Shown here one piece after another: positions 16,968-39,191 of a stretch of 39,326 nt of DNA (positions are counted from its first letter, which is position 1; each line of letters starts with the position of its first letter). Origin of the DNA: an uncultured Bacteroidales bacterium (GTDB lineage Bacteria; Bacteroidota; Bacteroidia; Bacteroidales; Paludibacteraceae); contig CACXCA010000054.1 of the NCBI GenBank assembly GCA_902766045.1, positions 1-39,326 of the forward strand. The letters run 5' to 3'. Below the pieces are notes generated by a model. The model was not told the origin of the DNA. It did no database searches and worked only from the letters and a program-made list of their open reading frames with translations. A program made the translations under genes and the position numbers.

Positions 16968-17067
16968 TTCACAATACGGGAAAATATCAGGCACACAAAA
17001 TGTCACTCTCGACATTATACAACGAATATATTTGTAAAAAAATAACACTCAGTAAATTGATTTGATT

Positions 17068-18078: not shown

Positions 18079-18091
18079 TCAAAAATGTTGT

Positions 18092-18877
18092 ATGAAAGGA
18101 GAACTAAATAAAATATTTGAAGAGTGGAAAGAGAGAATGAAGAGGAACGGAGATGGAAACTTTTTCACCAAAGATGGCATCTTGCGCCAAAACAACAAAT
18201 CAGACGAACAAATTGAGCAAAAATGGTTTTCCTCTTCAAAACGAATTCTTTTTTTGTTAAAAGATCAAGATCAAGTCGGAGAAACCAAATGGGACGAAGA
18301 CATTCGTGATTGGTTGAAAGACACAGAAAACGACAATGAGAAAGCATTAGAGCAGAAGAGGAAGAATCGTAATCTAGAAATACTTTTCACCAAAAGATTA
18401 GCCTATCTTCTATGGGGACTATCAAAGGCAGATAAAAACTGTGATTGGTGGTACGACGAAGTAACCCAACATATCGAAGATGTAAAAGTCCTTTTCAACA
18501 CACAACCATTTGCTTTAGTTGAATGTAAAAAAATGCCAGGAGGAGGATCTCTTAAAGATAAAATCTTAAATAGGCACCTTAGTAACTATGGTGATCTTCT
18601 AAAAAAGGAGCTTGATTTGCTAAAACCGAACATCATAATATGTACAAGTGTATTCATTTATGATTTTGTTGTTTCTTCCTATTCAGAGGATTCCATACAG
18701 AAAATAGAAGGACACAACAGCATCCGAATCATTCGGAATGACAACCATACAGAAACTCTGATTTTTTGTTCTTATCATCCGAGTGTCTTTGGCAAAAAAA
18801 AGGACTTTTTCTATGAAGGAGTAATGGATCATTATAGAGCTTTCTTGAAAAGCAAATACAACGATATAGACGCATGA
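18092..18877 (+). CDS. Uracil-DNA glycosylase-like superfamily protein
   Basis: A 261-residue protein from the ATG at 18092 (MKGELNK), chosen because the longer frame back to 17891 overlaps the previous gene out of frame. The order of motifs recalls UDG-like folds: RILFLLKDQDQ (51-61), FALVECKKMPGGG (140-152), a helix with KKELDLLKPNIIICTS (171-186), and CSYHPSVFG (226-234), where HPS stands where UDG-like proteins have their C-terminal catalytic His loop. The residues needed for uracil excision are not clearly conserved, so activity is uncertain. Alternative: a distant family with the same fold acting in defence or stress. It ends 24 bases before a terminator. Confidence 0.55.
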   Translation: MKGELNKIFEEWKERMKRNGDGNFFTKDGILRQNNKSDEQIEQKWFSSSKRILFLLKDQDQVGETKWDEDIRDWLKDTENDNEKALEQKRKNRNLEILFTKRLAYLLWGLSKADKNCDWWYDEVTQHIEDVKVLFNTQPFALVECKKMPGGGSLKDKILNRHLSNYGDLLKKELDLLKPNIIICTSVFIYDFVVSSYSEDSIQKIEGHNSIRIIRNDNHTETLIFCSYHPSVFGKKKDFFYEGVMDHYRAFLKSKYNDIDA

Positions 18878-18901
18878 ATTAAATGGTTTTAATTCCATAA
18901 G

Positions 18902-18930
18902 AGCCGCATCCATTGGGTGCGGCTTTTGTT
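18902..18930 (+). terminator. Terminator identical in core to that of pckG
   Basis: Arms AGCCGCA (18902-18908) and TGCGGCT (18918-18924) with loop TCCATTGGG are followed by TTTGTTTG. Stem and loop are identical to 16115-16137. Confidence 0.85.
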
Positions 18931-18969
18931 TGTTATTTTGCCATCCTATTCTAGTTGGAAAATTTTACC

Positions 18970-18977
18970 TACATTTG
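18970..18977 (+). promoter_or_regulatory. Candidate -7 box of the first DUF1016 gene
   Basis: TACATTTG fits TAnnTTTG and lies 38 bases upstream of the ATG at 19016. No TTTG at the right distance was found. Confidence 0.4.
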
Positions 18978-19015
18978 CATATTATTAATTTTTGCTTGTT
19001 TAATTATTTGCATTT

Positions 19016-20158
19016 ATGAAAAAAGAACATCCTGTCATACCGCTTTCACGGGCGGTGGAGACAATCAAAACAGCTATTCTGCAAAGTCAGGCACGTGCGG
19101 CCAAAATGATTAGTGGATCACAATTGTCGTTGTATTTTGGTGTGGGACTATATGTTTCAGCCAATTCTCGAGAAGGCACATGGGGAACTGGGGCAATCTA
19201 TACCATTAGCGAACAATTGCACAGAGAATTGCCTGGATTGCGGGGATTCTCCATTCAAAATATCCGAAATATGCGTCAGTTCGCAGAATTTTGGCAACCT
19301 TTTTTAATTCGCTCGCCGTCGGCGAGCGAATTAAAAACAGAAAATTTACGTAATAGCATTGAGTACGACAGACTCGCTTTAGAAAAATGGTCGCCTACGA
19401 CGAGCGAAATTAATCGCGACGAGTTTTTGGGCATCAGTTTCTCTCACCACATAGAGATTCTCCACAAAACAAAGAACATTCAAGAGGTGCTAAACTGCAT
19501 CCACGAGGCGGTTGTCCACCAATGGGATAAATACACGTTGAGGGACGTACTAAAAGCTGGCATTCCACAGCCAGAACATACCGCACCTAACAATTTTGCA
19601 CAAACAATGCCGACAGTGAAAGCAAGCATGAAAGCCATCCGCATGTTCAAAGACGAATATTTGCTGGATTATATCAACGTAGAAGAATTAGACGCAGAAG
19701 ATGAAGATGTGGATGAAGCGGTCGTCGAACAGCACATCATACAGAACATCAAACGGTTTATCATGACGTTGGGACGCGACTTTACATTTGTTGGCAACCA
19801 ATATCATCTGGAAATTTATGGAGAGGAGATGAAAAGCGACTTGCTATTCTTTAATCGTGAACTGAATGCCCTTGTAGCCATTGAGTTAAAGAAAGGGAAA
19901 TTCAAACCTGCATATCTAGGTCAATTATATGCTTACATGCAAGTGCTGGATGACAAGGTAAAAAAGCCCCACGAAAATCCTTGCATTGGCATCGTGCTTT
20001 GTAGAAGCGCCAATCAAGCTTATGTGGAATATGCAGTACGCGACTACAACAAGCCTATGGGAGTGTCAACGTACAAAACACTTTCTGACATGCCCACAAG
20101 TATGCGTGAGATTCTTCCAGACGTCAAAGAAATGATGAAGTTGTTGGATGAAGAATGA
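19016..20158 (+). CDS. DUF1016/YhcG-type PD-(D/E)XK nuclease-domain protein, copy 1
   Basis: The 380-residue protein has an N-terminal DUF1016 domain (about 10-100; LSLYFGVGLYVSANSR, then LPGLRGFSIQNIRNMRQF) and a C-terminal PD-(D/E)XK-like domain (about 240-365). The nuclease motif is DLLFFNRELNALVAIELKKG, with Asp and E-x-K; QYHLEIYGEE precedes it and IGIVLCRSAN follows. YhcG-type proteins are associated with nucleic-acid binding and defence or recombination loci, but their role is not settled. A 37-base palindrome inside the frame (19301-19337) encodes part of the linker after the first domain. The first 70 bases are almost identical to those of the next gene, a paralogue. Confidence 0.85.
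   Translation: MKKEHPVIPLSRAVETIKTAILQSQARAAKMISGSQLSLYFGVGLYVSANSREGTWGTGAIYTISEQLHRELPGLRGFSIQNIRNMRQFAEFWQPFLIRSPSASELKTENLRNSIEYDRLALEKWSPTTSEINRDEFLGISFSHHIEILHKTKNIQEVLNCIHEAVVHQWDKYTLRDVLKAGIPQPEHTAPNNFAQTMPTVKASMKAIRMFKDEYLLDYINVEELDAEDEDVDEAVVEQHIIQNIKRFIMTLGRDFTFVGNQYHLEIYGEEMKSDLLFFNRELNALVAIELKKGKFKPAYLGQLYAYMQVLDDKVKKPHENPCIGIVLCRSANQAYVEYAVRDYNKPMGVSTYKTLSDMPTSMREILPDVKEMMKLLDEE
19301..19337. repeat. In-frame perfect palindrome in DUF1016 copy 1
   Basis: Perfect 18-bp arms with a one-base loop; the left arm is TTTTTAATTCGCTCGCCG. It lies inside the coding frame and adds FLIRSPSASELK-like residues between the N-terminal and middle domains without breaking the frame. Confidence 0.9.
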
Positions 20159-20177
20159 TATTATTTATACAGAAGGA

Positions 20178-20211
20178 TTTTAAATCGGTCGTTGCGACGC
20201 ACGATTTAAAA
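20178..20211. repeat. Intergenic palindrome between the two DUF1016 genes
   Basis: Arms TTTTAAATCG (20178-20187) and CGATTTAAAA (20202-20211) pair perfectly, and GTCG and CGAC pair inside them. It begins 19 bases after the first stop codon and lacks a T tract, so it is more like the in-frame palindromes than a terminator. Confidence 0.75.
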
Positions 20212-20240
20212 GTACACAAACAACAAAAAAAAGAATATTT

Positions 20241-21410
20241 ATGAAAAAAGAACATCCTGTCATACCGCTTTCACAGGCGGTGGAGACAATCAAAACAGCT
20301 ATTCTGCAAGGGCAATACGAAGCCCTAAAGGAAGTTAATCGAGTACAGCTCGCTGTGTATTATGCCATCGGAAAGTATCTGTCGAAGAACACGCGCAGTC
20401 TTGCTTACGGGTCAGGCGGAATCAAGACAATCAGCGATCAATTACGCAAAGAGATGCCAGGCCTTAGAGGCTTTTCGGCAACGCAACTCAAGGACATGCG
20501 CCGGTTTTACGAAGCTTGGGAAATATTGGATTCCAACAATACAGAAACATCAAATGAAGATTCGACGGTCACAACCGTCGAATCTTATTGCACACAAAAT
20601 CAAATAGATATACGACATGCGATCACGATTCCAAATCTCACAGATTTTCCTGTCGAGGATTTCTTTAATGTGCCTTTCACCCATCATTCAAGGATCATAA
20701 ATCTTTGCAAAGATGTTCATGGAAAGTATTATTATATTCACCGCACAGCACAAGAAAAACTATCCGTTGAGAATCTAGAGAAACTCATCAAAAGAAAAGC
20801 CTACGAAAACCAAGATCGACTACCTAACAACTTCGCCCAAACCATATCCGACTCCTTCATGGCTCGCAAAGCGGTGATGATGTTCAAAGACTCATACGCC
20901 TTACAATTCATTAATACGGAGGAAATTGGAGAGAGGGATAAACAAGATATCGACGAAAAAGTCATCGAACAGAAGATTGTTCAGAACATAAAGAACTTCA
21001 TCATGACCTTTGGCAATGATTTCACTTTTGTCGGCAACCAATATCACCTTGAAATATATGAAGAAGAATTTTTCCCCGACTTGATTTTCTTTAATCGCGA
21101 ATTAAATGCGCTGGTGGTGGTTGAACTGAAGATGGGAGATTTTAAACCAAGCTATCTCGGACAACTGACAACATATTTGAAAATATTGGACACAAAAGTT
21201 CGCAAACCGCATGAAAGTTCTTCGATTGGTATTGTTCTCTGCAAGTCTGCTAATAAAGATTTTGTGGAATTTGTCATACAAGATTATGACAGACCGATGG
21301 GTGTCGCCACCTATTCCACCGCAGAAGAAATGCCTAATCGCTTGCGAAAAGCATTGCCAGACGTTGAAGAACTGAGAAAAATTATGCGTAAAGGTATTGA
21401 CGGAAAATGA
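20241..21410 (+). CDS. DUF1016/YhcG-type PD-(D/E)XK nuclease-domain protein, copy 2
   Basis: A 389-residue paralogue of the preceding gene with the same layout: DUF1016 N-terminal domain (VQLAVYYAIGKYLSKNTR, then MPGLRGFSATQLKDMRRFYE), a variable linker, then LPNNFAQTISDSFMARKAV and the nuclease motif DLIFFNRELNALVVVELKMG. The first 23 codons are nearly identical to copy 1 at the DNA level, then the genes diverge abruptly. The linker also carries an in-frame palindrome (20557-20586). The tandem arrangement 82 bases apart suggests duplication, or arrival together, followed by partial gene conversion. Substrate and partner are unknown. Confidence 0.85.
   Translation: MKKEHPVIPLSQAVETIKTAILQGQYEALKEVNRVQLAVYYAIGKYLSKNTRSLAYGSGGIKTISDQLRKEMPGLRGFSATQLKDMRRFYEAWEILDSNNTETSNEDSTVTTVESYCTQNQIDIRHAITIPNLTDFPVEDFFNVPFTHHSRIINLCKDVHGKYYYIHRTAQEKLSVENLEKLIKRKAYENQDRLPNNFAQTISDSFMARKAVMMFKDSYALQFINTEEIGERDKQDIDEKVIEQKIVQNIKNFIMTFGNDFTFVGNQYHLEIYEEEFFPDLIFFNRELNALVVVELKMGDFKPSYLGQLTTYLKILDTKVRKPHESSSIGIVLCKSANKDFVEFVIQDYDRPMGVATYSTAEEMPNRLRKALPDVEELRKIMRKGIDGK
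20557..20586. repeat. In-frame palindrome in DUF1016 copy 2
   Basis: Arms AAGATTCGACGGT and ACCGTCGAATCTT (13 bp, perfect) with loop CACA. It is in frame, at the same place in the protein as the palindrome of copy 1, but unrelated in sequence. Confidence 0.88.
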
Positions 21411-22976: not shown

Positions 22977-25637
22977 CTATTTCTCTATCGCCTTAATCTT
23001 ATCCGCATACTTGCTCCAACCTTTTGCGGTTTTGTATTTTTCCACACTTTCTGCAGGGACGTAGATGGTTTGAATAGGAGTTCTAAAAAATAGTTCCTCT
23101 ACAGTCGGCGGTTCTTCGTTTTCTATCGTGATAGTTTTAAGAGAAGAACACATTGAAAATGAATAATTTCCTATACTGATTACTGAATTAGGAATTACAA
23201 CGCTATCAAGGTTACAATTATAGAATGCACAAGTTCCAATCTTAGTCACACTTTGGGGTATCGACACTTCTTTTAATGAGGATCTATTAAATGCGTCATT
23301 CCCAATTTCCTTTACACCGTTTGGAATCTCAATACTGGTAATATCAGAATCAAGAAAAGCTGCCTCACCAATATGTGTCACGGTGTTCGGAATGGTGCAA
23401 GTAACTCTTTTGGTCGGGAAAAACAGCAATGTGTCTTTTGCCTTGCTGAACAATACACCATCGGCTGAAGAGAAAAACTTGTTTTTGGATGCCACTTCTA
23501 TTCTTTCAAGGCTATAGCACTCCCAGAAAGCCTCCTTGCCAATCTTATTCACACCGGAAGAGATGGAAACGCTGCTAAGGTTGTTACATTCCCTAAATGC
23601 CCTATCACCAATCGAAGTCACACTACTAGGAATAATCACGGCAGTAAGTTTCCTGCTGGCTTCAAAAGCATGATTTTCAATCATTGTCACATGATACTTC
23701 TTCCCATTGTATTCTACTTTGTCTGGAATGGTGATTGTGTCTGTATATCCCACATATTTAGCCTCTTTTTTAAATCTCACAGCAGCGGTTTTTGTTTCCT
23801 CATTAAGTTTGTACCAGATTGTATCTCCGTCGCGGTTTGCGATACAGGTGTCAATGGCCGTTGCATTATGAATCCCAGAAAGATCACTTTCTTTCTGGTT
23901 TTGTTGTTTCTTTCCTACAATTTTAATTCTCGGACATTTTTTGAAGACTTCTTCCCATTTCCCATTCTCAGAATCAGGCACTATCACTGTTGTTTCTTTC
24001 CCTGGTTTTTTTATTTGTGTTTTAGGCTTATAAACCTTTTTATTGCATTCTATATTGGAAAACCAGCTTTTTTGCAAAACTACTTCCCTCAGGGAACAAG
24101 TTATGCGGTACGCTATTGTCTTCTTATCATCTTTCTTTTTTAATTCTGAATGTAAACTAAGATCCTGTGAATATTCTGTTCTGTTGAAAGCGTCCGATCC
24201 AACATTGGTGACGGAATTTGGAATCATCATACTATCTAAATTAATACACCCTATAAAGGCAGAATCGGCAATGCTGCGAACGGACTTTGGAATCTCTAAA
24301 TTGGTAAGAGTTTCACAACAAGCGAAAGTTCCTTTATTTATGCGGTCAACTGATTTCGGAATCGTAACGCTGTCTAATTTTACGCAACCTACAAAAGCCC
24401 AATCTTCGATGTCAGTCACAGACTCTGGAATTGAAACTGTTTTCAGTCTGTCACAATCTGTAAATGCAAATTCCCCTATAGTCTTCACTCCTTTTGGAAT
24501 CATCACACGTTCTAAACTGACACAACCTAAAAAAGCGGCCATCCCGATCCTATTCACAGATTTTGGAATTGACACATTCTTCAGACTACTACAATTTGCA
24601 AAAGCGAAGTCATCTATCTCCTTCACACCTTGAGATATAATTACACTTTCTACAGTACTGAACCTAAAAGCAAACATTCCAATATTCTTTACTGTTTTGG
24701 GGATCGTTACACTTTTTAGGTTTTTACTATAAAACGCATTTGGCAGAATTGTCCTCACTGATTTTGGAATTTCATAGGCTACCTTTTTATTGTTTATGGG
24801 GAATGCAAGTAATGTGTCCTTTGCTTTGTTAAACAACACGCCATCTTCTGACGAATAGAATTTGTTGTCGGGTGCAACCTCTATATTTTCAAGATGAGTC
24901 ATGTACCATAATGCAAGCGATTTAATCTGTTTCACTGTGTTAGGGACAACATAGGACAAATTTTTCTTTTCCATGGAAAATGCAATCAACGTGTCCTTCG
25001 CTTTATTGAACAACACTCCATCTTCTGACGAATAGTATTTATTGCCAGCCGCAACCTCTATGTTTTCAAGATGACTGATGCTGCGCAATGCTAGCCATTC
25101 TATTTGTTTCACCGTGCTAGGGACAACATAGGACAAACTTTTCTTTTTCTCTGGGAATGTGATTAACGTGTCCTTCGCTTTATTGAACAGCACGCCATCT
25201 TCTGACGAATAGAATTTGTTGTCAGTTGCAACTTCTATTTTTTCAAGTTCAGGACAATCTCCAAAAGCTTCTTTATCGATACTGTTTAGAGTGCCGGGTA
25301 GGATAATGCTTGCCAAATAGCTATTGAATTCAAAGGCATCTTTAATGATACTTGTCACCTTATAAACTTTCCCATCAAAAGTGACCTCCGAGGGGACTGT
25401 CACATTACCTGCGGGTCCCGAATAGAGGGTGTCTCTGGATTCTACTCCAGCTATTACTTTAAAAGATGTCTCCCTAGTAGGATTTTCTTGTTTTATTACC
25501 GCAACATCTGTTTCTGACATGATTTGATATTTCAACGTCTGACCCTTGTAAGCAAACTCAAATGTCTTATCTTCCTGTGCTTGCACAAAACTTGTGAAGA
25601 ACAATGCGAATAATAAAATGTTAAAAATATTTTTCAT
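22977..25637 (-). CDS. BspA-like leucine-rich-repeat surface protein
   Basis: I start at the ATG at 25637 (886 residues, MKNIFNILLFALFFTSFVQA signal peptide). The upstream in-frame ATG would place 38 non-signal residues in front. Two blocks of BspA/LRR_5 repeats (consensus like VTIPKSVKNIGMFAF) are separated by a lysine-rich non-LRR region at about 525-650. The first block contains three nearly identical 60-residue units with KFYSSEDGVLFNKAKDTLI and YVVPSTVKQI. The C-terminus TIYVPAESVEKYKTAKGWSK is the usual end of such proteins; no T9SS tail or LPXTG is seen. Family members bind host proteins such as fibronectin or fibrinogen in oral Bacteroidetes. The ligand here is unknown. Confidence 0.88.
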   Translation of the reverse strand: MKNIFNILLFALFFTSFVQAQEDKTFEFAYKGQTLKYQIMSETDVAVIKQENPTRETSFKVIAGVESRDTLYSGPAGNVTVPSEVTFDGKVYKVTSIIKDAFEFNSYLASIILPGTLNSIDKEAFGDCPELEKIEVATDNKFYSSEDGVLFNKAKDTLITFPEKKKSLSYVVPSTVKQIEWLALRSISHLENIEVAAGNKYYSSEDGVLFNKAKDTLIAFSMEKKNLSYVVPNTVKQIKSLALWYMTHLENIEVAPDNKFYSSEDGVLFNKAKDTLLAFPINNKKVAYEIPKSVRTILPNAFYSKNLKSVTIPKTVKNIGMFAFRFSTVESVIISQGVKEIDDFAFANCSSLKNVSIPKSVNRIGMAAFLGCVSLERVMIPKGVKTIGEFAFTDCDRLKTVSIPESVTDIEDWAFVGCVKLDSVTIPKSVDRINKGTFACCETLTNLEIPKSVRSIADSAFIGCINLDSMMIPNSVTNVGSDAFNRTEYSQDLSLHSELKKKDDKKTIAYRITCSLREVVLQKSWFSNIECNKKVYKPKTQIKKPGKETTVIVPDSENGKWEEVFKKCPRIKIVGKKQQNQKESDLSGIHNATAIDTCIANRDGDTIWYKLNEETKTAAVRFKKEAKYVGYTDTITIPDKVEYNGKKYHVTMIENHAFEASRKLTAVIIPSSVTSIGDRAFRECNNLSSVSISSGVNKIGKEAFWECYSLERIEVASKNKFFSSADGVLFSKAKDTLLFFPTKRVTCTIPNTVTHIGEAAFLDSDITSIEIPNGVKEIGNDAFNRSSLKEVSIPQSVTKIGTCAFYNCNLDSVVIPNSVISIGNYSFSMCSSLKTITIENEEPPTVEELFFRTPIQTIYVPAESVEKYKTAKGWSKYADKIKAIEK
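24826..25245 (-). repeat. 180-bp tandem repeats inside the BspA-like gene
   Basis: Three units with a 180-bp period share the block encoding NKFYSSEDGVLFNKAKDTL (around 24826-24865, 25006-25045 and 25186-25225). The identity is much higher than between ordinary LRR units, which indicates recent duplication. Confidence 0.85.
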
Positions 25638-25658
25638 TGCAGCTGATATTAATGAAGA

Positions 25659-25666
25659 CAAAAATA
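25659..25666 (-). promoter_or_regulatory. Candidate -7 box of the BspA-like gene
   Basis: TATTTTTG on the minus strand, 21 bases upstream of the chosen ATG at 25637. It supports that start over the longer frame. No -33 box is evident. Confidence 0.4.
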
Positions 25667-25855
25667 CCGAAATTTTCTGTTTGGCTGACGATTTCTGCAA
25701 ATTTTCAAAAATCACCGCCCCATTAGTTATTCGACGGAATCTATGCCCCAAACAAATTCACAACGACTTTCCTTGTGTTTTTTTGTGAATCAGTCAATGA
25801 AATATCCCCTGATTTAATTAAATCTACTTTTCCTGACTGCCACATTAAGCTGGTC

Positions 25856-25907
25856 ATTCCGTTAAAAAAATGTATAGTTTAATAGAATATTCCGTTAAAA
25901 AAGTGTA
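25856..25907 (+). promoter_or_regulatory. Two-copy operator-like array (array i) before the broken ATPase
   Basis: ATTCCGTTAAAAAAATGTA at 25856-25874 and again at 25889-25907 with one mismatch (period 33 bp). The second copy ends five bases before the ATG at 25913. Confidence 0.7.
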
Positions 25908-25912
25908 AGGTT

Positions 25913-27220
25913 ATGATTAGAATTTTATACAATGAATTGAAAATGTGATAATTATCTCCAAAATGTAAGCCTTTAGTTTTATTAGGAGCAAGACAGGTTG
26001 GAAAAACTTGGTTGCTTGAGGAGTTTGGCCGTAATGAATATAGCAAGGTCGCTTTTGCTAGTTTAGATCGCAATGAAGCGGTGGCAGATTTACTTCGTAC
26101 AGAGAAGAATGTTGATAGAATATTAAGAGGATTATCTGCATTGCTATCTGTGGATATTACTCCAGGAGACACATTGATTATTTTGGATGAGATTCAAGAT
26201 TGTCCTGAAGCACTGGAACGTATGAAAGTGTTTTGTGAGGATGCCACCGAATTTCATGTTGCAGTTGCAGGAAGTTTATTGGGCATCAGTCTTCATTCGG
26301 GAGTATCATATCCCGTAGGCAAGGTGGATGAACTTACACTTTATCCCATGACATTTGAAGAATTTATCGTGGCAAAGGGTAAGGAGGAGATGTGTAATAT
26401 TCTCAGGACTCACGACTGGAATCTCATAGCATCTATTAGCGACGAATATATCGACTTGCTACGACAGTATTATTATGTAGGAGGAATGCCTGCAGTCGTG
26501 AAAACATATATTGAAGGAATGGGATTACAAGCCGTAAGAAATGAACAGAAAAGGATCATATTCGACTATGAGAATGACTTTAGTAAGCATGCATCTGCAC
26601 GTATAGTTCCTCGTATTCGTATGGTTTGGCAGAGTCTCATTTCCCAATTGGCGAAGGATAATAAAAAGTTTGTGTATAGTGCCTTGAAGAAAGGGGCAAG
26701 AGCGAATGACTTTGAAGAGGCGATACAATGGCTTATAGATGCAGGTATTGTCTATAAGGTTCGACGTGTGACATCTGTCGCCATGCCCTTGAAATTCTAT
26801 GAAGATTTGGATGCTTTCAAACTTTTTATACTTGATGTTGGTCTTATGGGAGCAATGGCAGATGTGCCTGCAGAGTTGGTGCTTGTAGGAAACAACATCT
26901 TCAAGGAATACAAAGGCTCTTTTACAGAAACATACGTATGTACACAGCTGGTTGCTGCAAAAATACCTTTGTATTATCATACAGTAGAGCAGTCGCGCAT
27001 TGAACTTGATTTTGTCATTCAACTATCGGATAATGTTTATCCGGTAGAAGTAAAAGCTGAGGAAAATGTAAAAGCAAAATCCATGAAAATATTTATCGAC
27101 AACCATCCTCAATTGTCGGGTATTCGGTTATCTATGAAAGATTATATCAAACAATCATGGATTGAGAATATTCCGTTATACGCATTTTCTCCCTATTTGA
27201 AGGAACGAAATTTGATGTGA
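25913..27220 (+). pseudogene. AAA ATPase with DUF4143 domain, interrupted by two stop codons
   Basis: From the ATG at 25913 the frame reads MIRILYNELKM, then TGA TAA (25946-25951), then LSPKCKPLVLLGARQVGKTW, so the natural N-terminus is separated from its own Walker A motif (GARQVGKT, 25985-26008) by tandem nonsense codons in the same frame. Downstream it is intact: LIILDEIQDCPEAL is Walker B, VAVAGSLLG follows, and the C-terminal DUF4143 domain has IELDFVIQ-x8-PVEVKAEE, a PD-(D/E)XK-like Asp and E-x-K. No good start exists between the stops and Walker A. A TTG at 26012 would give a product lacking the P-loop, so it is probably non-functional unless stop codons are read through. The family is linked to defence or toxin-antitoxin-like loci, without a known mechanism. 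Confidence 0.75.
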
Positions 27221-27230
27221 TTCGATATGA

Positions 27231-27258
27231 GTAGAGACGCACGGCCGTGCGTCTCTAC
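27231..27258. repeat. Dispersed palindrome, copy 3
   Basis: A 28-base perfect palindrome beginning GTAGAGACGCACGG, 10 bases after the ATPase stop codon. It is followed by a half copy, CGCGTCTCTACACC, at about 27269-27282. Confidence 0.9.
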
Positions 27259-32544: not shown

Positions 32545-32572
32545 GTAGAGACGCAATGCATTGCGTCTCTAC
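32545..32572. repeat. Dispersed palindrome with variant centre
   Basis: A 28-base perfect palindrome: the arms start GTAGAGACGCAATG and the centre is AATGCATT instead of ACGGCCGT. Both halves changed together, so the pairing is preserved. It lies after the beta-lactamase-fold gene. Confidence 0.88.
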
Positions 32573-32647: not shown

Positions 32648-32744
32648 TTTCGGTTATAACCGAAAATTATGTCTATTTTGAAAAAAAATCGGTTATAATA
32701 GAATTTTTGTGTGTTTTTTGGAAAAGATTCGGTTATAATAGAAA
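32648..32744 (+). promoter_or_regulatory. Three-copy operator-like array (array ii)
   Basis: TCGGTTATAA occurs at 32650, 32689 and 32729 (periods 39 and 40 bp). The first copy extends to the perfect palindrome TTTCGGTTATAACCGAAA (32648-32665); the others read TCGGTTATAATAGAA. The array is followed by an apparent ATPase C-terminal stub rather than a complete gene. Confidence 0.75.
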
Positions 32745-32851
32745 CTTTTCCCAAATTCGTTGTAACCCTAGATAAATTCCAACGTCCCATCAGAAACGGT
32801 ATCGTGCATGTACTGGCACCAGAGTTTCATAAGGTGTTGGAGAGGGTGTGA
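32741..32851 (+). pseudogene. C-terminal stub of an AAA/DUF4143-type ATPase
   Basis: An open frame without a start codon reads TFPKFVVTLDKFQRPIRNGI and then VHVLAPEFHKVLERV, stop. The pattern (VVTLD, then a short turn, then GI-hV, then an Fxx-L end) resembles the last strand and helix of DUF4143-type proteins. It begins right after array ii. Weak on its own; the stubs after arrays iv and v make it more credible. Confidence 0.3.
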
Positions 32852-32883
32852 TTAGCAGATTCCACAAATTCACACATTATTAA

Positions 32884-33031
32884 TTGGCGCAATCTTAATC
32901 TTTTGTGCAGATTGCGCCAAAGTATAACATTATTATTTGCGCAATCTCATATTTTTAATCACTTTGCGCCAAAATATAATTTATTTTCTGGCGCAATCTT
33001 ATATTTTTATTAACTTTACGCCAAAATATAA
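32884..33031 (+). promoter_or_regulatory. Three-copy inverted-repeat array (array iii) before the ATPase_2 gene
   Basis: Three units with an exact 52-bp period: GCGCAATCT at 32887, 32939 and 32991, and the inverted partner (GCGCCAAA or ACGCCAAA) at 32914, 32966 and 33018. Unit 1 is a perfect 12-bp inverted repeat (TTGGCGCAATCT with AGATTGCGCCAA). The last unit ends 10 bases before the ATG at 33042 and includes TAACTTTA, a near match to the -7 consensus, so a bound protein would cover the promoter. Confidence 0.85.
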
Positions 33032-33041
33032 ATGAAGTAAG

Positions 33042-34502
33042 ATGGAAAATTCAATTATAGGTCGCGAAAAAGAGATAATAGAACTGAAGAAATATCTTTC
33101 TTCGGAACAGTCGGAGTTTATAGCTGTCTATGGAAGGCGACGTGTTGGTAAGACATTTCTTATAAAAGAGCTTCTAGAAGGGCAATTCTGTTTTAGAATG
33201 ACAGGCAAGGAAAATGCACGTCTTGGAGAACAGTTGCTAAATTTTTCGTATGCGCTATCGGATTCGTTTAATGATAACCGTGTACCTCAGAATTGGACAG
33301 AGGCATTTCGTATGCTCTCTAAAAATATCGAGAACCAAGGGGATGGTGCAAAAATCATCTTCATTGATGAACTTCCGTGGCTTGACACGCAGAAATCCAG
33401 ATTCCTTGGGGCGTTGGAACATTTCTGGAACAATTGGGCATACTATCGGAAGGACATAAAACTAATCGTCTGTGGTTCTGCCACATCATGGATGCTAAAT
33501 AAACTGATTAACTCCAGAGGTGGGTTACATAACCGTGTAACTCACAAAATGCTGATTTCCCCATTCTGTCTTGAAGAAATGGAACAATACTTCCAGAGCA
33601 GAGGCTTCAACTATGAGCGTCCCGAAATGATAGATTGTTACATGGCTGTGGGTGGTGTCGCCTATTATTTATCTTTGTTTGACAAAGACAAAAGTGTAGC
33701 AGAGAACATCAATAAGTTATGTTTCACTAACGGTGGAGAGTTGACAGATGAGTTTAACAGGCTCTATGACTCGTTATTCAAAAAGGCGGACAACCATATT
33801 GCTGTTATAAATGCGCTTAGCATCGCACGGAAAGGCATGACACGTCTCGAGTTAATCAACAAGACGAAACTACAAAACAATGGCAATTTCAGCACATTGC
33901 TCAAAGAACTGGAAACATGTGAATTCATTCGTTCATACTACTCATTCGACAAAGAGAAGAAGGACAAAATGTATCAACTCACCGATCAATTCTCGCTATT
34001 TTATCTTCATTTTATGAAGGATAGAAGCAATGTCGGGAAAAACTATTGGCTTCAGAAGATAGGCACCCCTGAGTATGCAGCATGGTCTGGTTATTCTTTT
34101 GAGACGGTATGTATGCACCATATAGAACAAATCATTGACGCTTTAGGCATCAGCGGAACAATCCATTCGGCATGTTCATGGTCGTATCGTCCATCAGAAG
34201 CTGTCCTTAATGATGCGGATGCGGACGAAGACATGAAGAAGGGCGGTCAGATTGACTTGCTTATCGATCGGAATGATAAGACAATAAGCGTATGTGAAAT
34301 GAAATATGCAAGCGGAGAATACGAGATAACAAAAGCCTATGCCAGCCATGTAGAGCAAAGGCTCCGCACATTCAGGAAGGTTACCTCCACCAAGAAATCT
34401 TTTTCAATAGTTTATGTAACACCTTTCGGTCTTTACAATAATATGTACGCAAGGAATGTCAACAAACAGATAACAGCAGACGATCTATTCAGGAAAGTAT
34501 GA
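33042..34502 (+). CDS. ATPase_2 (archaeal-type) with C-terminal DUF234 nuclease-like domain
   Basis: A 486-residue protein. Walker A is GRRRVGKT (31-38), Walker B is IIFIDE (105-110) with LPW following, and GSATSWM is the sensor region; these are hallmarks of the ATPase_2 STAND-related family. A winged-helix segment follows at about 265-320 (NALSIARKGMTRLELINKTK). The C-terminal DUF234-like domain carries GGQIDLLIDR-x8-CEMKYA, a PD-(D/E)XK-like Asp plus E-x-K. The cellular role is unknown; similar proteins are abundant in Bacteroidetes and archaea. It is an intact gene preceded by array iii, and is flanked on both sides by remnants of related genes. Confidence 0.85.
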   Translation: MENSIIGREKEIIELKKYLSSEQSEFIAVYGRRRVGKTFLIKELLEGQFCFRMTGKENARLGEQLLNFSYALSDSFNDNRVPQNWTEAFRMLSKNIENQGDGAKIIFIDELPWLDTQKSRFLGALEHFWNNWAYYRKDIKLIVCGSATSWMLNKLINSRGGLHNRVTHKMLISPFCLEEMEQYFQSRGFNYERPEMIDCYMAVGGVAYYLSLFDKDKSVAENINKLCFTNGGELTDEFNRLYDSLFKKADNHIAVINALSIARKGMTRLELINKTKLQNNGNFSTLLKELETCEFIRSYYSFDKEKKDKMYQLTDQFSLFYLHFMKDRSNVGKNYWLQKIGTPEYAAWSGYSFETVCMHHIEQIIDALGISGTIHSACSWSYRPSEAVLNDADADEDMKKGGQIDLLIDRNDKTISVCEMKYASGEYEITKAYASHVEQRLRTFRKVTSTKKSFSIVYVTPFGLYNNMYARNVNKQITADDLFRKV

Positions 34503-34551
34503 TTGTTTCCGAGTATGATTCTCATACACATGGATTTGTGCATTTCTTTTA

Positions 34552-34635
34552 ATGACAACACAAATAAGAATAGAAACACACCCCATACGTATTGCCGATC
34601 ACCTCTTCCAACCAAACACCTTCTTTGGGATATAA
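34552..34635 (+). other. Possible gene fragment of 27 codons
   Basis: An ATG-initiated frame reads MTTQIRIETHPIRIADHLFQ and then PNTFFGI, stop. It lies between the ATPase_2 gene and array iv. The composition looks protein-like, but it is too short to assign and may be a remnant or chance. Confidence 0.2.
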
Positions 34636-34640
34636 ATGCT

Positions 34641-34705
34641 TGAAAATTCGCAGTACTACTTCACATTTTCAATGAAAATTCGCAGTAGTGTTGCGAATTT
34701 TTAAG
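34641..34705 (+). promoter_or_regulatory. Two-copy repeat with inverted partner (array iv-a)
   Basis: TGAAAATTCGCAGTA at 34641-34655 and 34673-34687 (period 32 bp), followed by an inverted partial copy GTTGCGAATTTTTA near 34690-34703. It resembles arrays i and v in spacing but has no gene directly behind it; array iv-b follows 10 bases later. Confidence 0.65.
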
Positions 34706-34714
34706 GTAAGGATT

Positions 34715-34800
34715 GGTTTTTGCTCTGTTTTTTATTAAAAATCGGTCGGTTTTTGCTCTGTTTTTTATTAAAAACAGGCGATTTTTTGCTCTATATTTTC
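34715..34800 (+). promoter_or_regulatory. Three-copy repeat (array iv-b)
   Basis: TTTTTGCTCTGTTTTTTATT in full at 34715-34741 and 34748-34774, and a degenerate third copy (TTTTTTGCTCTATATTTTC) at 34782-34800, period 33 bp. Each full copy ends in TTATTAAAAA. An ATPase C-terminal stub follows within four bases. Confidence 0.75.
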
Positions 34801-34803
34801 TCA

Positions 34804-34887
34804 TCCTTTGTCCATAACGGCAACACTATCAAGGTTGTACCGCTGTATGCATTGTCTTCTATATACAAGGGGGGAATAAAATTGTAA
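34804..34887 (+). pseudogene. C-terminal stub of an AAA/DUF4143 ATPase
   Basis: The frame without start reads SFVHNGNTIKVVPLYALSSI and then YKGGIKL, stop. NTIKVVPLYALSS is close to the C-terminal strand of AAA/DUF4143 ATPases (compare ENIPLYAFSPYLK in the protein ending at 27220). It begins four bases after array iv-b, so most of the ATPase body has been lost while the array and the last 25 codons remain. Confidence 0.5.
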
Positions 34888-35156
34888 TCTACCAAACCGA
34901 GGACGGACAATCACAGATTGACGTCCGTTTGGAAAATGAAACCGTGTGGTTGTCGCAGGCTCAGATGGCTGAGTTGTTTCATACCGATCGAACATCTATT
35001 GTTCGTCACATCAACAACATCTACAAGTCAGAGGAATTGAACAGGAATTCAATTTGTGCAAAAATTGCACAGGTTCAAATTGAAGGCAAAAGGGCTGTTA
35101 AACGTACTGCCCTACTCTTTAATTTGGATATGATTATTCCCCAACCTGTGCCATGA
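34875..35156 (+). pseudogene. Truncated RhuM-family gene
   Basis: The frame reads NKIVIYQTEDGQSQIDVRLE, then TVWLSQAQMAELFHTDRTSI, then VKRTALLFNLDMII, all typical of the N-terminal domain of RhuM/virulence-associated proteins (normally about 330 residues). It stops after PQPVP at 35154-35156, with the C-terminal three quarters missing. No ATG precedes the conserved start; an AAGGGGGG stretch lies just upstream. It overlaps the ATPase stub at its 5' end. It was probably displaced by recombination near 35135. Confidence 0.75.
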
Positions 35157-35340
35157 TTTGACGCAGGTTGTGTTTTATTTTGCGGTCGAATGAATGATTA
35201 ATATAGCGGCTGATGGTTGAAAACAGCGTCCCGAAGGTGAGTTGATAAATATTAATAAATTGGGCGGGTAAAAATGTTTGGACGATGAGTTGTGGGTGTT
35301 GATTGTTTTGGATATATTTGGGAACTAAACAACAAATTAT
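35134..35340 (-). other. Non-coding or remnant stretch with an open minus-strand frame
   Basis: Between the RhuM remnant and the McrB promoter there is no complete gene. The minus strand is open for about 66 codons without a start, ending LFSTISRYINHSFDRKIKHN and then LRQIMAQVGE, stop at 35136-35134. I do not recognise it. It could be the 3' end of a lost gene whose junction with rhuM is near 35134, or chance. Confidence 0.25.
35289..35320 (+). promoter_or_regulatory. Promoter of the McrBC-PLD operon
   Basis: GTTG (35289-35292), a 20-base spacer and TATATTTG (35313-35320). The leader contains a 9-codon frame (ATG at 35353, MSKVFKLWI, stop at 35380-35382) that overlaps the mcrB start at 35373, which would allow translational coupling or interference. 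Confidence 0.65.
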
Positions 35341-35372
35341 AAAAATTAGAATATGAGTAAAGTATTTAAATT

Positions 35373-37136
35373 ATGGATATAAGCTCACTATCATTCAAAG
35401 ATTTGGTTGATAAAATCAACAAAGACTTAGGAAACGATTTTTGTGATACGTTTCGATATAAGCGCAAAGAACTCAGCAACTCTGGACGTGCATCTTCATA
35501 TGGTATTTTATTCAAATTCGTAAAAGAAGGTCGTGATTGGGTTATAAACGAAGGAGGAGGAACAGAAATTCAATTCCATCTATATTACCGAGAAAACACA
35601 ATAGGTTATGGGTTGGGATTCAATGCTCAATATATTCGCTTTGCTACTAACGAAAAGGCTGCTGTTGAATACATTATACCTTTCGTTAAAGCTTTTTTAT
35701 CTTTGAAAAGCCAAAAGGACGAAGCTATATCGTCTTTAGAAAAAGATGGATTTTCTTTAATAGAAGGGGATTGGGAAGGATTAAAGAATATCGCTCCCGA
35801 TGAATATTACCTATTTGGAAAAGAAATTCAAATTCATAATGACATTCTTCCTGATAGTGAATATAATCGGATGATAGAGAATATTAAGAATGATTTATTT
35901 AAATTATATGTGTCAGTCTGGAAAGAAAAAAATGAGATGGAAAAAAGATTAGAAACAATAGAACAATATACGAACTTATTAACAAAGAATCACAACTTAA
36001 TCCTCACCGGTGCTCCCGGCACTGGTAAAACCTATTTAGCAAAAGAAATTGCCAAAGGCATGGGTTGCTCTGATGACGAAATAGGATTTGTACAATTCCA
36101 CCCTTCATACGACTATACTGATTTTGTGGAGGGTTTACGTCCTAAACAAGATGACAACGGGAATGTTGTCTTTGAGCGAAAAGATGGTGTGTTTAAAAAG
36201 TTCTGTAAAAAGGCTATTGCCAAGGAGACCACTGAAGAAAACAAATTTGATGAGATATGGGATAAATTTATAGCTGACATACGAGTTAAGTTATCCAATG
36301 GAGAATTAACAAAAATTGGCAATTGGGAATATGGATTGTCAACAAAAGATTCATTAAAATACTCGTCAATAAATACCCCGTCACAATATTCATTCACAAT
36401 AACTAAAAAGAACATTTTGGATACCTACTGTGGTAGACAAGCACGTCCATCAGGAGCCTTCCAAAAAGATATGCTTGATATTGTTCAGCATTTAAAACAA
36501 ACATACAATTTGTCGGACAAACCGGAACAGACAGATAGTGGTGATAAAACGACAAAACAATATGTTTTCATCATCGACGAAATCAACCGTGGAGAAATCT
36601 CTAAAATATTTGGAGAGTTATTCTTCTCAATTGACCCAGGATACCGCGGCACAGATGGAAAAGTTAAAACTCAATATCAAAATCTTATAGATGAAGACGA
36701 CGAGTTTTTCGATGGTTTCTACGTCCCCGAAAACGTCTATATCATCGGCACCATGAACGATATCGACCGTAGCGTGGAGAGTATGGATTTCGCATTCCGT
36801 AGGAGATTTGCCTTTAAAGAAATCAAAGCAATAGATAGGATTGAAATGTTATATGATGCAGAAACCGGAATTGGAGAGTATGCAGAAAAAGCTAAAAATA
36901 GAATGATTCACTTAAATGAAGAAATTGAAAAAATAGAAGGTCTTTCTTCTGCTTATCATGTTGGACCTGCCTATTTCCTAAAATTAAAGAATTATAATGG
37001 AGATTTCAACCAACTTTGGGAGTATCACCTCGATGGGCTTTTGCGTGAATATCTGCGAGGAATGCAGAATGTGGACGATAGTATGGGAAAACTAAAAACC
37101 GCATACGAAAATGAGAATCCAACTGACGGACAATAG
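35373..37136 (+). CDS. mcrB: McrB-like AAA+ GTPase of a modification-dependent restriction system
   Basis: A 587-residue protein. Residues 1-150 form an N-terminal domain, probably the target-recognition part (KFVKEGRDWVINEGGGTEIQ). The AAA+ motor follows: Walker A GAPGTGKT (213-220), the McrB-typical VQFHPSYDYTDFVEGLRP, Walker B YVFIIDE (397-403) with INRGEISKIFGELF, and MNDIDRS (461-467), corresponding to the McrB MNxxDRS motif. A long insertion (about 285-395) separates Walker A from Walker B. The C-terminus ends in a helical region (LLREYLRGMQNV). With McrC it should translocate on DNA and cut near modified sites. The N-terminal domain does not look like E. coli McrB's, so the recognised modification is unknown. 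It overlaps mcrC by 26 bases. Confidence 0.9.
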   Translation: MDISSLSFKDLVDKINKDLGNDFCDTFRYKRKELSNSGRASSYGILFKFVKEGRDWVINEGGGTEIQFHLYYRENTIGYGLGFNAQYIRFATNEKAAVEYIIPFVKAFLSLKSQKDEAISSLEKDGFSLIEGDWEGLKNIAPDEYYLFGKEIQIHNDILPDSEYNRMIENIKNDLFKLYVSVWKEKNEMEKRLETIEQYTNLLTKNHNLILTGAPGTGKTYLAKEIAKGMGCSDDEIGFVQFHPSYDYTDFVEGLRPKQDDNGNVVFERKDGVFKKFCKKAIAKETTEENKFDEIWDKFIADIRVKLSNGELTKIGNWEYGLSTKDSLKYSSINTPSQYSFTITKKNILDTYCGRQARPSGAFQKDMLDIVQHLKQTYNLSDKPEQTDSGDKTTKQYVFIIDEINRGEISKIFGELFFSIDPGYRGTDGKVKTQYQNLIDEDDEFFDGFYVPENVYIIGTMNDIDRSVESMDFAFRRRFAFKEIKAIDRIEMLYDAETGIGEYAEKAKNRMIHLNEEIEKIEGLSSAYHVGPAYFLKLKNYNGDFNQLWEYHLDGLLREYLRGMQNVDDSMGKLKTAYENENPTDGQ

Positions 37137-38442
37137 CTGCAAGCCATACTCTGAGATTAAGGATTTCAAGGATTCGGACAAGGGCAATTTGCAGAAAATA
37201 GCCAACGTGGCGATTAAAAAATTGTCCTTAGATGATAATCTTAATCTTTTGGTCTTCCCCCGTGATTTGAATCACTATGGCGACGATATTAGCGAAGGCC
37301 GTATTATCGAATTGCAGGGCGACCAAATCATTACGGGCAACATCATGGGCTTCGTCGGGGTCAACAACACGCAGATAGATATCCGTTCACGCTTCGCGAA
37401 AGAGGATGGGAACGACTATTTCCTGCACTACATGTTGCAGAGAGTGTTCGCTATCAACTTGTTCGACATCAAACACACCACCGACAAAGAACAGGTGTTC
37501 GATTTCCTGCTCTATCTTTTTCCCCACTTCCTGCAAAAGGCGTTGGGGCAAGGGCTTTACAAAAAGTACCGTCGATTTGAGTACAACGACGCCAACATCC
37601 GTGGGCCGATCGATGTGAGCCGACATATCCGCCAGAACATCCCTTTTCGAGGTACCGTGGCTTATTCCACGAGGGAGCATAGCTACGACAACGAGGTGAC
37701 GCAACTTATCCGCCACACGATAGAGTACATCAGGACGAAAGCCCATGGTGCACACATCTTGAGCAATAACAAAGAGACGAAAGAGGCTGTCAGCCAAATC
37801 GTTATGGCCACGCAAACCTATAACGTCCGGGAGCGTCAGAAGGTCATCAACCAGAACCTCCGACCCGTCAGACATCCCTACTTCTCAGCCTATACGGAAC
37901 TGCAAAAGATTTGTCTGCAAATCCTTCGCCACGAATCCCTCAAGTACGGGCAGGAGAAGGACAAGGTCTATGGCATTCTGTTCGATGGCGCATGGTTGTG
38001 GGAGGAGTATCTGAATACGATTCTGCAGAAATATGGATATACGCATGCAGAAAACCTAAAGGGTAAAAATCCGATTACCTTGTACACTGGGAATCCCCGT
38101 TATCCTGATTTTTATAAAACTGAGCAAATAAAAAATTTCAAATATGGGGATACTATCCCTGACGGGAATGACATCCTTGATGCAAAATACAAACCATTGG
38201 ATTCAAAATCAGACCGTGATGATATACACCAAATCATAACGTATATGCACATTTTGCCATCTAAGAGTAGCGGATTGCTATATCCATGCAGAGAAACAAT
38301 TCCTCCCAAAGAATATAAAGTATATGGTATTGGTGGTACAATTCGCAATATTGGTTTAAATGTAATTCATATTTGCGATGATTTTAATAGCTATGTAGAA
38401 GCAATGAAGAAAGAAGAATCTAATTTAATCGACAAAATATAA
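37111..38442 (+). CDS. mcrC: McrC-like nuclease subunit
   Basis: A 443-residue partner of McrB. The N-terminal part has NIMGFVGVNNTQIDIRSRF, where the beta-rich domain binds McrB, and FEYNDANIRGPIDVSRHIRQ, a McrC hallmark. The C-terminal PD-(D/E)XK nuclease is visible as ILFDGAWLWEEYL, then RYPDFYK and NDILDAKYK (the catalytic Asp and D-x-K core), then HQIITYM. The start ATG lies inside the end of mcrB, so translation is coupled. A change of codon use and GC content is seen: 37.1-38.1 kb is clearly more GC-rich than mcrB, then AT-rich again to the end of the gene, hinting at a mosaic history. Confidence 0.9.
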   Translation: MRIQLTDNSCKPYSEIKDFKDSDKGNLQKIANVAIKKLSLDDNLNLLVFPRDLNHYGDDISEGRIIELQGDQIITGNIMGFVGVNNTQIDIRSRFAKEDGNDYFLHYMLQRVFAINLFDIKHTTDKEQVFDFLLYLFPHFLQKALGQGLYKKYRRFEYNDANIRGPIDVSRHIRQNIPFRGTVAYSTREHSYDNEVTQLIRHTIEYIRTKAHGAHILSNNKETKEAVSQIVMATQTYNVRERQKVINQNLRPVRHPYFSAYTELQKICLQILRHESLKYGQEKDKVYGILFDGAWLWEEYLNTILQKYGYTHAENLKGKNPITLYTGNPRYPDFYKTEQIKNFKYGDTIPDGNDILDAKYKPLDSKSDRDDIHQIITYMHILPSKSSGLLYPCRETIPPKEYKVYGIGGTIRNIGLNVIHICDDFNSYVEAMKKEESNLIDKI

Positions 38443-38448
38443 TCCGTC

Positions 38449-38961
38449 ATGCTCACCTACCTCCCCAACCAAACCCACTACACCACATTGTTCTCCCGCA
38501 TCCAATCCGTGAAGCACACGCTATGGATTGGCACCGCCGATATCAAAGACCTCTATGTGGAGGTGGGCGGTGAGAAGAAACCGTTTCTGGCACTGATCGC
38601 TCAACTCATCCGAAGGGGTGTGGAGGTGAGACTGATCCATGCAAAAGAACCGGGACCGAACTTTCGTGAGGACTTTGATAAATACCCCGTGTTGTACGAC
38701 CGACTGGAGCGAGTGCTCTGCCCAAGAGTTCACTTCAAGATGTTCGTATTCGACTGCAAAGAGGTTTACGTGGGTAGCGCCAACCTTACAGGCGCTGGCA
38801 TCGGCATGAAAGCTGAAACAACTCGCAACTTCGAAGCTGGAATACTGACCGACGACCCGCAAATCGTCGAACAAGCTATGAACCAGTTTGATGAAGTATG
38901 GATAGGCAAACACTGCAAAACGTGCAAACGGAGGGAGTATTGCGGGGATCCGATTGGGTGA
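38449..38961 (+). CDS. Phospholipase D-like protein with C-terminal Cys cluster
   Basis: A 170-residue protein with a single HKD-type motif: RVHFKMFVFD (His95, Lys97, Asp102), then VYVGSANLTGAG (109-116). One HKD implies a dimer, as in Nuc-type nucleases. The C-terminus (KHCKTCKRREYC, Cys156, 159, 165 and perhaps His155) looks like a small metal-binding knuckle. Members act as DNases or phosphodiesterases. It follows mcrC by six bases, so it belongs to the same operon and is likely an additional effector or DNA-end-processing component (inference). Confidence 0.85.
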   Translation: MLTYLPNQTHYTTLFSRIQSVKHTLWIGTADIKDLYVEVGGEKKPFLALIAQLIRRGVEVRLIHAKEPGPNFREDFDKYPVLYDRLERVLCPRVHFKMFVFDCKEVYVGSANLTGAGIGMKAETTRNFEAGILTDDPQIVEQAMNQFDEVWIGKHCKTCKRREYCGDPIG

Positions 38962-38994
38962 ATTTCAAAGGGGGATATTATTCCCAATAATCTC

Positions 38995-39070
38995 GAAAAG
39001 ATGTAATTTTACATCTAATATAATCTTGAAAAGATGTAATTTTACATCTAATATAATCTTGAAAAGATGT
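38995..39070 (+). promoter_or_regulatory. Three-copy operator-like array (array v)
   Basis: GAAAAGATGT at 38995, 39028 and 39061 (period exactly 33 bp). The first two copies extend into the near-perfect palindrome AGATGTAATTTTACATCT. The third ends 10 bases before the ATG of the ATPase N-terminal stub at 39081. Confidence 0.85.
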
Positions 39071-39080
39071 AAATATACTT

Positions 39081-39191
39081 ATGAAAAGAAAGATATACAG
39101 CAAGTTATTAGAGTGGAAAGGACAACGAAATGGTTCCACAGCTGTACTGATTAGAAGGTATATGAAGGTATCAAGGTACTTTTCAGTATAG
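39081..39191 (+). pseudogene. N-terminal stub of an AAA ATPase
   Basis: From the ATG, MKRKIYSKLLEWKGQRNGST and AVLI match the typical start of the AAA_14/DUF4143 family, just before where the Walker A strand and loop should follow. Instead the frame runs into RRYMKVSRYFSV and stops at 39191. The ATPase body is absent; the next gene starts 23 bases later. Array v directly precedes it. Confidence 0.6.

Follow-up and report, generated by a model that had tools for sequence, protein, structure and literature searches.

Why should the genes of one ATPase family each carry, directly upstream of their start, a short array of repeats that is private to the gene, and what reads it? The question is raised by a stretch of 39,326 nucleotides (contig CACXCA010000054.1, here C54, positions 1 to 39,326; hereafter the window) from the 3.35-Mb genome of an uncultured Bacteroidales bacterium, in which six repeat arrays (i, ii, iii, iv-a, iv-b and v) occur together with AAA+ ATPase genes of the candidate defence types PDC-S01 and PDC-S27, or with what is left of such genes. 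A first-pass annotation of this DNA had proposed the ATPase, or else a partner, as the binder of each array. The comparisons described below make it fairly probable that a standalone AAA+ protein with a nuclease-like domain binds its own array, most likely repressing its own promoter.

The arrays are real and general beyond the window. Among 22 AAA_14 matches in the own genome the 14 strongest were taken (L001-L014, genes i and iii of the window included), and 13 of these 14 are preceded by an array of 2-4 copies, the remaining one by a single perfect palindrome. A weaker match, L020, which passes the cut-off only by summed stretches, has no 9-base repeat upstream. The wider sample comprised 100 stretches, among the matches listed in 21 genomes of the same genus or order, plus the search loci; 12 family open reading frames (ORFs) lacking a P-loop or Met, and identical upstream regions, were left out. 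In the resulting non-redundant upstream regions a tandem score of at least 14 was reached by 104/143 family genes, compared with 12/152 neighbour genes and 2/429 dinucleotide shuffles. The first-pass annotation had described the architecture as conserved among such genes and had suggested shuffled and other-gene controls, and the enrichment over both bears this out. The excess was also visible in a first, cruder run (47/82 family, 14/144 control) and in later sets (37/51 and 53/63). The 143-gene set contains orthologues; after clustering at 60% identity, arrays were carried by half or more of the members in 51 of 78 clusters, and at 40% identity in 16 of 24. Of the control hits, three (two from L035, one from L048) represent a solo array left by a lost gene of the L105-L107 type. 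Inverted repeats alone separated the groups less well than tandem repeats (score of at least 12 in 39/143 family genes, 13/152 neighbours and 3/429 shuffles).

Periods of PDC-S01-type arrays mostly fall close to a multiple of 11 bp. Across 104 arrays (score of at least 13) the period was 33 bp in 48, 32 in 23, 31 in 3, 21-23 in 13, 64-67 in 7 and 44 in 1; nine arrays (40, 52, 53, 56, 59, 75) do not follow the 11-bp rule. PDC-S27 homologues, of which 22 were usable after 7/29 loci had been left out, carry an inverted repeat in 18/22 cases (shuffles, 8/220) and a 52-54 bp repeat in 6/22 (shuffles, 5/220); a dyad or an array was found in 19/22 vs 12/220 shuffles, shuffling being the only control for this type. 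In the 143-gene run, where the loop limit was slightly shorter, 15/152 neighbour genes reached the PDC-S27 palindrome score. At L009/L012 (G000:C1, about 16848-19404) two divergent ATPase genes have a common intergenic region with one distinct array per gene, one made of 33-bp direct repeats and the other of 75-bp-spaced palindromes.

The sequence of the repeat follows the protein. In the 104 array genes the unit was alike in 110/110 pairs at 70% protein identity or more, in 12% of 24 pairs at 60-70% and in 1-10% of pairs below 60%, using a likeness threshold built to give a 1% chance rate. The covariation with protein subfamily that the first-pass annotation had anticipated is therefore present, and its description of the repeats as unrelated between loci needs qualification: paralogues in one genome do have different units, and these units track the protein subfamily. 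Within three genomes (11, 14 and 6 genes) like arrays were seen in 1/55, 1/91 and 0/15 pairs, about the chance rate, in line with the great distance between these paralogues. The privacy of the repeat is illustrated by the L006 unit, which a whole-genome search allowing up to 2 mismatches located four times in its own array and once about 0.9 kb downstream of the gene (G000:C8:11675-11694, 1 mismatch), and nowhere else. Conservation in the repeat core was 83% over 62 pairs at 68-95% identity, compared with 48% for other array positions, 54% upstream and 65% downstream, suggesting that the cores are under purifying selection.

The same correspondence extends beyond the Bacteroidota. In a scan of named genomes with five proteins of the own genome, restricted to the best 80 of 554 matches (78 usable; L213 and L224 were left out as partial), arrays preceded 45/49 Bacteroidota and 15/29 other-phylum homologues as against 2/390 shuffles, and all 60 array-bearing homologues had a period of 32-33 or 65-67. 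The other phyla include Spirochaetota, Desulfobacterota, Acidobacteriota and Marinimicrobia, the labels being those of record titles, mostly of metagenome bins. Expectation maximisation (EM), after three short proteins had been left out, returned for this subfamily the motif TTTACCCTTACTTTGTTACAAA, repeated every 33 bp; at least two copies were found at 62/75 loci, and adjacent copies were spaced by exactly 33 bp in 110/152 cases and by 32 in 18/152. Consequently, one subfamily carries one operator type into different phyla. A viral scan gave 28 family loci from 2.9 million contigs, so the family is mainly a cellular one.

A shared motif with varying bases made it possible to ask which residues vary with them. 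Every protein column was compared with every motif base by mutual information with average-product correction (residue numbering as in L004), in set 1 (57 loci), set 2 (33 independent loci) and set 3 (42 loci), and over a pool of 137 gene-array pairs. Left out were 5 loci in which over 6 motif bases were undecided (undecided bases being dropped from each table), 28/65 set-2 and 16/63 set-3 proteins without two phased motif copies, near-duplicates, and 7/70 set-3 loci for which no frame could be used; for 14 members of set 2 the start is an estimate. In set 1, residues 360, 361 and 358, paired with bases 10, 8 and 15, were the top three of about 9,900 pairs. Three rules were recorded from set 1 before sets 2 and 3 were gathered: K/R360 with C10, D/E358 with T15, and Q361 excluding A8. 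The pooled data placed K360-base 10, G361-base 8 and D358-base 15 at ranks 1-3 of 9,842 (Z 18.9, 10.7 and 6.7); by itself, set 2 ranked 360-10 second of 9,242, and set 3 ranked 360-10 and 361-8 first and second of 9,778. The first rule was replicated in set 2 (C10 in 13/16 K/R360 proteins, 0/12 others; p=1.5e-5) and in set 3 (15/20 vs 0/15; p=4.8e-6), that is in 28/36 vs 0/27 for both sets pooled. Similarly, T15 accompanied D/E358 in set 3 (26/29 vs 1/5; p=0.0035), set 2 having too little variation for this rule and for that on Q361, and an association of D/E361 with C8 seen in set 1 (4/5 vs 3/53) held in set 3 (8/10 vs 1/30).

Common descent was corrected for by edge-disjoint tree contrasts, the pairing being greedy and set-dependent. 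For K/R360-C10 the contrasts were 5:0 in set 3, 11:0 in sets 2 and 3 together (p=0.0005) and 17:0 over all sets (p=8e-6); D/E358-T15 gave 6:0 (p=0.016) and D/E361-C8 7:0 over all. A tree-corrected scan of residue classes in sets 1 and 2 put 360-10 first of 2,474, where 11:0 by itself fails multiple-test correction; the weight of this pair comes from the rule having been recorded beforehand and then replicated. Just below the top three rank residues 250, 251 and 264, among others such as 343, 450 and 229; we take the former three to lie in a putative winged helix. The residue order (358, 360, 361) runs antiparallel to the base order (15, 10, 8), as would be expected for a loop lying along the groove. 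In combination, these couplings argue strongly that the ATPase itself reads its array, through a predicted loop at 357-364 beside the PD-(D/E)XK core, and so favour the first of the two binders that the first-pass annotation had allowed, the ATPase over a partner.

Gene i matches the PADLOC profile of PDC-S01 over most of its length (514 bits), as do L195, L004 and L006 (551-643 bits); Pfam gives AAA_14 and DUF4143 for gene i and ATPase_2 for gene iii. The latter had been assigned earlier to ATPase_2/DUF234, of which the DUF234 part is not listed at E<=0.01. In the PDC-S01 subfamily the Walker residues K32, D91 and E92 are present in 95/95 proteins, and D367, E380 and K382 in 95/95, 94/95 and 95/95, respectively. 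The last three we take, in part after PMC12988326, to be the PD-(D/E)XK motif, from which cleavage is predicted. An AlphaFold2 model of the L195 protein from 47 sequences (predicted local distance difference test, pLDDT, 93.2; predicted template modelling score, pTM, 0.91) places the loop 357-364 between strands 353-356 and 365-372, the second of which carries E365/D367, with E380 in the strand that follows and K382 shortly after that strand, so that the strand order is that of PD-(D/E)XK folds. The C-terminal PD-(D/E)XK-like domain noted at the outset is thus confirmed for the PDC-S01 type, by DUF4143 in gene i and by the near-invariant residues. Foldseek comparison of the model with the PDB returned archaeal AAA+ ATPases (2qen, 2fna) as best matches, then Cdc6/Orc1 on origin DNA and RuvB. 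No relative was found in the PDB by sequence, and NCBIfam gave nothing above its cut-off for four proteins. The accessible part of PMC12988326 likewise describes PDC-S01 and PDC-S27 as both fusing an ATPase to PD-(D/E)XK, places PDC-S01 fourth in frequency among prokaryotic defences (29,494 bacterial and 9,986 archaeal instances) and calls validation pending for most PDCs; in PMC13356809, as far as its accessible text goes, PDC-S01 ranks first in frequency among individual loci of rumen genomes. The defence half of the earlier suggestion of a defence or addiction function is putative, being argued only from the candidate status in PADLOC and from this literature.

How would binding act on the gene? 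A TAnnTTTG box, which we take to be the Bacteroidota -7 box, lies within 110 bp of 120/143 family starts vs 72/152 controls. In the motif subfamily the distance from the start of the closest upstream copy to that of the box is 26-29 bp in 15/43 cases, and in 10/43 the box falls inside the motif itself, probably by chance. A copy 26-29 bp upstream of the box would cover about -35 to -14, and a protein bound there should therefore block RNA polymerase. From the arrays, their spacing and conservation, their tracking of the protein, the residue-base coupling and the conserved Walker and PD-(D/E)XK residues we infer a one-gene unit composed of a private operator array, a promoter and then the AAA+ ATPase gene, the product of which would, in the PDC-S01 type, comprise the AAA+ ATPase, a winged-helix-like region and a PD-(D/E)XK nuclease-like domain. 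In each 22-bp site the loop 357-364, with residues 360 and 361 clearest and then 358, would read bases 10, 8 and 15. Successive sites start 33 bp apart, close to three turns of the helix, which could align 2-6 subunits on one DNA face, and the bound protein would block RNA polymerase at its own promoter until foreign DNA or infection relieved repression and freed the nuclease. Autorepression is most likely, as the simplest reading of this geometry, with activation as an alternative. No recurrent partner gene was found, the largest neighbour family occurring at 9/68 loci, and in 12/62 a gene on the same strand follows at 60 bp or less. Conservation of the catalytic core points to a function beyond binding. 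In the part of PMC4406477 available, the Thermus AAA_14/DUF4143 gene TT_P0211 is listed at 6.6 in a section on expression changes with plasmid DNA; this single table line fits derepression by foreign DNA. A more speculative extension, perhaps correct but doubtful at present, is that the array serves as a heritable self-address at which the nuclease is docked inactive with the promoter shut, that ATP- or invader-triggered release fires the protein, and that 360-10, 361-8 and 358-15 form the loop code. If so, address and loop would change together, permitting a dozen or more mutually orthogonal copies per genome, and this would explain how one of the most frequent candidate defence families multiplies within one genome.

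Several observations weigh against autorepression through a loop-read array. No array at score 14 or above was found for 39/143 family genes, some of which hold one palindrome, nor, within the best 80 of 554 matches, for 14/29 non-Bacteroidota homologues. The recorded rule that Q361 excludes A8 failed in set 3, and the pair 358-15 falls to rank 269 in sets 2 and 3 alone. C10 is missing for 15/68 K/R360 proteins and present for 2/51 others, and the tree contrasts for this pair were 8:1 in set 1 and only 3:0 in set 2 (4:0 on another tree). Comparison of identity profiles between same-unit and different-unit pairs over the whole family revealed no hot spot, and the loop rule consequently holds for one PDC-S01 subfamily only. 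Finally, when sigma-70 geometry was considered outside the Bacteroidota, the last copy (4/18) was not set apart from earlier copies (9/35; shuffles 23/360), so that repression is argued from operator position only.

All arrays and genes of the family in the window lie on the forward strand. Array i (25853..25909; two copies starting at 25856 and 25889, period 33 bp) precedes gene i (25913..27220), an AAA_14/DUF4143 gene of the PDC-S01 type that two adjacent in-frame stops after codon 11 make a pseudogene. Array ii (32648..32745; three copies at 32650, 32689 and 32729, period 39/40 bp), which falls below calling by Tandem Repeats Finder (TRF) at score 40, resembles the array of the intact gene L126_1, and directly behind it stub ii (32747..32851) holds the last 34 residues of the cognate ATPase, matching residues 398-431 of L126_1 at 91%. 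Array iii (32885..33031; three dyad copies at 32887, 32939 and 32991, period 52 bp) is present also at L329, a homologue 54% identical and from another family, and precedes the intact ATPase_2-type gene iii (33042..34502; PADLOC PDC-S27, 642 bits). Array iv-a (34641..34707; copies at 34643 and 34675, period 32 bp) is solo, its gene being absent in the window and present in G002 (L123). Array iv-b (34715..34799; three copies at 34717, 34750 and 34783, period 33 bp) resembles the array of the intact gene L139_0, and stub iv-b (34801..34872), directly behind it, holds the C-terminal ~24 residues of the cognate ATPase, with 92% to L139_0 residues 421-444. Array v (38987..39072; three palindromic copies at 38995, 39028 and 39061, period 33 bp) was searched for in 16 genus genomes and turned up only in its own; it precedes stub v (39081..39155), in which an AAA_14-type ATPase starts and breaks off after ~25 residues (62% to L037_0 residues 4-29). 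The 2-3 copies reported for arrays i, ii, iii, iv-b and v could all be located, and the 33-bp period reported for three arrays is that of i, iv-b and v. The description of these arrays as lying in front of ATPase starts or fragments is accurate for genes i and iii and for stub v, an N-terminus; it does not apply to stubs ii and iv-b, which are C-terminal tails. At 32745-32747 and 34799-34801 two deletions thus run from the array 3' end to near the C-terminus of the cognate gene.

The McrB-like AAA_5 gene (35373-37136) and McrC (37111-38442), both on the forward strand, are neighbours of the arrays by position only. Other defence-like genes are two consecutive DUF1016/YhcG PD-(D/E)XK genes (19016-21410) and a small nucleotidyltransferase gene (16212-16502). 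A 177-bp tandem repeat of 2.5 copies (24802-25247) lies within a 924-aa ORF on the minus strand (22977-25751), and short palindromes, GTAGAGACGC..GCGTCTCTAC, at 27231-27258 and 32545-32572, with imperfect relatives near L008 and L065, appear to be a scattered element resembling repetitive extragenic palindromes (REP-like).

Five of the six window arrays (i, ii, iv-a, iv-b and v) are now without a working gene, and in G009 and G010 the L105-L107 array is kept while homology ends within the ~10 first bases of the gene: arrays outlive genes. This persistence bears on an addiction element, in which loss of the gene would expose the array to damage and kill the cell. In favour of such an element are the nuclease-like character of the protein, its private site in cis and the other defence-like genes nearby; since arrays outlive lost genes in the window and in G009 and G010, and as a two-gene operon with a conserved partner is not seen (largest neighbour family 9/68 loci), the idea is highly improbable, and the addiction half of the earlier suggestion is disfavoured with it. 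Another reading is a site of recombination or mobility, in which the array bounds a cassette and the nuclease acts on it in a homing-like manner, regulation being secondary. An own-unit copy lies up to 1.5 kb downstream of 10/99 genes (9 in the same orientation) vs 9/1,193 for mismatched units. Downstream unit copies were seen at L110-L114, L116, L123, L137, L013, L009 and, inverted, L065, and the copy stops at the array end in L111, L114, L116, L123 and L137. In G002 (L123:2405-3861) the iv-a array stands on both sides of the intact gene where the window (34600-34872) has a single array, and with a right flank (iv-b array and stub) 96% identical and a left flank similar by eye the two appear to form a filled/empty pair, recombination between the flanking arrays leaving the solo iv-a. 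The 3' ends of arrays ii and iv-b run directly into the C-terminal tails of the genes they belonged to, and these junctions (n=2) might point to breakage at the array. Yet about 90% of genes have no downstream copy, the ten that do include orthologues (L110-L113; L114 with L116) and hence fewer independent cases, the solo sites L035 and L048 break inside the first ~10 bases of the gene and not at the array, and ordinary recombination between 70-80 bp repeats would account for L123. Homing endonuclease sites are generally disrupted once occupied, and here occupied loci keep repeated arrays, with no disruption by insertion seen. Mobility as the main function is accordingly an unlikely reading, if a better one than addiction.

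That the arrays are bound by a separate host regulator or nucleoid protein, the likeness among orthologues reflecting common descent only, is less likely still. Co-inheritance of array and gene could by itself give like units among close orthologues, but array bases follow one ATPase loop across separate branches (the 17:0 contrasts), one motif goes with one protein subfamily in several phyla, and each gene would need a regulator of its own when no neighbour family exceeds the 9/68 loci noted above. As improbable as addiction is an action of the repeats in RNA, as leader hairpins or by attenuation. The PDC-S27-type operators are dyads able to fold; the PDC-S01 units are mostly direct repeats, and of 89 array genes that have a TAnnTTTG box, 66 have the end of the array before the box or no more than 7 bp beyond the first base of the box, so that much of the array is probably untranscribed. 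Binding of the array by the ATPase it precedes, with repression of its promoter, is thus the reading we prefer. It would provide most copies of a common, uncharacterised candidate anti-phage family with a visible, predicted sequence-specific DNA ligand. The loop code predicts the base preferred by each protein, a rule becomes available by which arrays can be matched to their genes and lost genes recognised, and the question of PDC-S01 function becomes approachable by direct binding, reporter and specificity-swap tests.

With respect to known systems, the PADLOC profile places the protein in the same family as PDC-S01/PDC-S27, for which PMC12988326, in its accessible part, treats prevalence, descent and domains, the fusion of ATPase to PD-(D/E)XK among them, with no mention there of an operator array or of DNA recognition. 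A search of the literature, with preprints and most subscription papers outside it, returned no description of these arrays. Orc1/Cdc6 proteins share the combination of AAA+ and winged helix, and 2qby (Cdc6/Orc1 on origin DNA) was the third Foldseek match to the L195 model, with TM-scores of only 0.28-0.34. Orc1/Cdc6 is not known to have a PD-(D/E)XK domain; here, unlike there, it is the nuclease-like domain that holds the strongest signal of specificity, and every paralogue comes with an array of its own. Membership of Orc1/Cdc6 was considered and rejected, as Pfam gives no such family for genes i and iii and the fold match of the L195 model is weak. A parallel in regulation exists, in that the regulator Orc1-2 binds a motif on its own promoter according to the accessible text of PMC9738581. 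The best PDB fold matches, the archaeal AAA+ ATPases PABY2304 (2qen) and SSO1545 (2fna) (E 7e-8 and 4.7e-7), are partial (TM-score relative to the query, TMq, 0.44-0.45). In plasmid Rep-iteron modules, helically phased direct repeats lie beside the gene of a binding, self-repressing protein; the present arrays are on chromosomal-type contigs with no replication function indicated, and the protein is AAA+ and nuclease-like, not a Rep. Restriction-modification controller (C) proteins and similar repressors, e.g. RptR, have operators before defence genes that are read by a separate regulator, whereas here the effector itself appears to read the operator. What seems to be new is the pairing of one private, helically spaced array per gene with a putative specificity loop in the nuclease-like domain.

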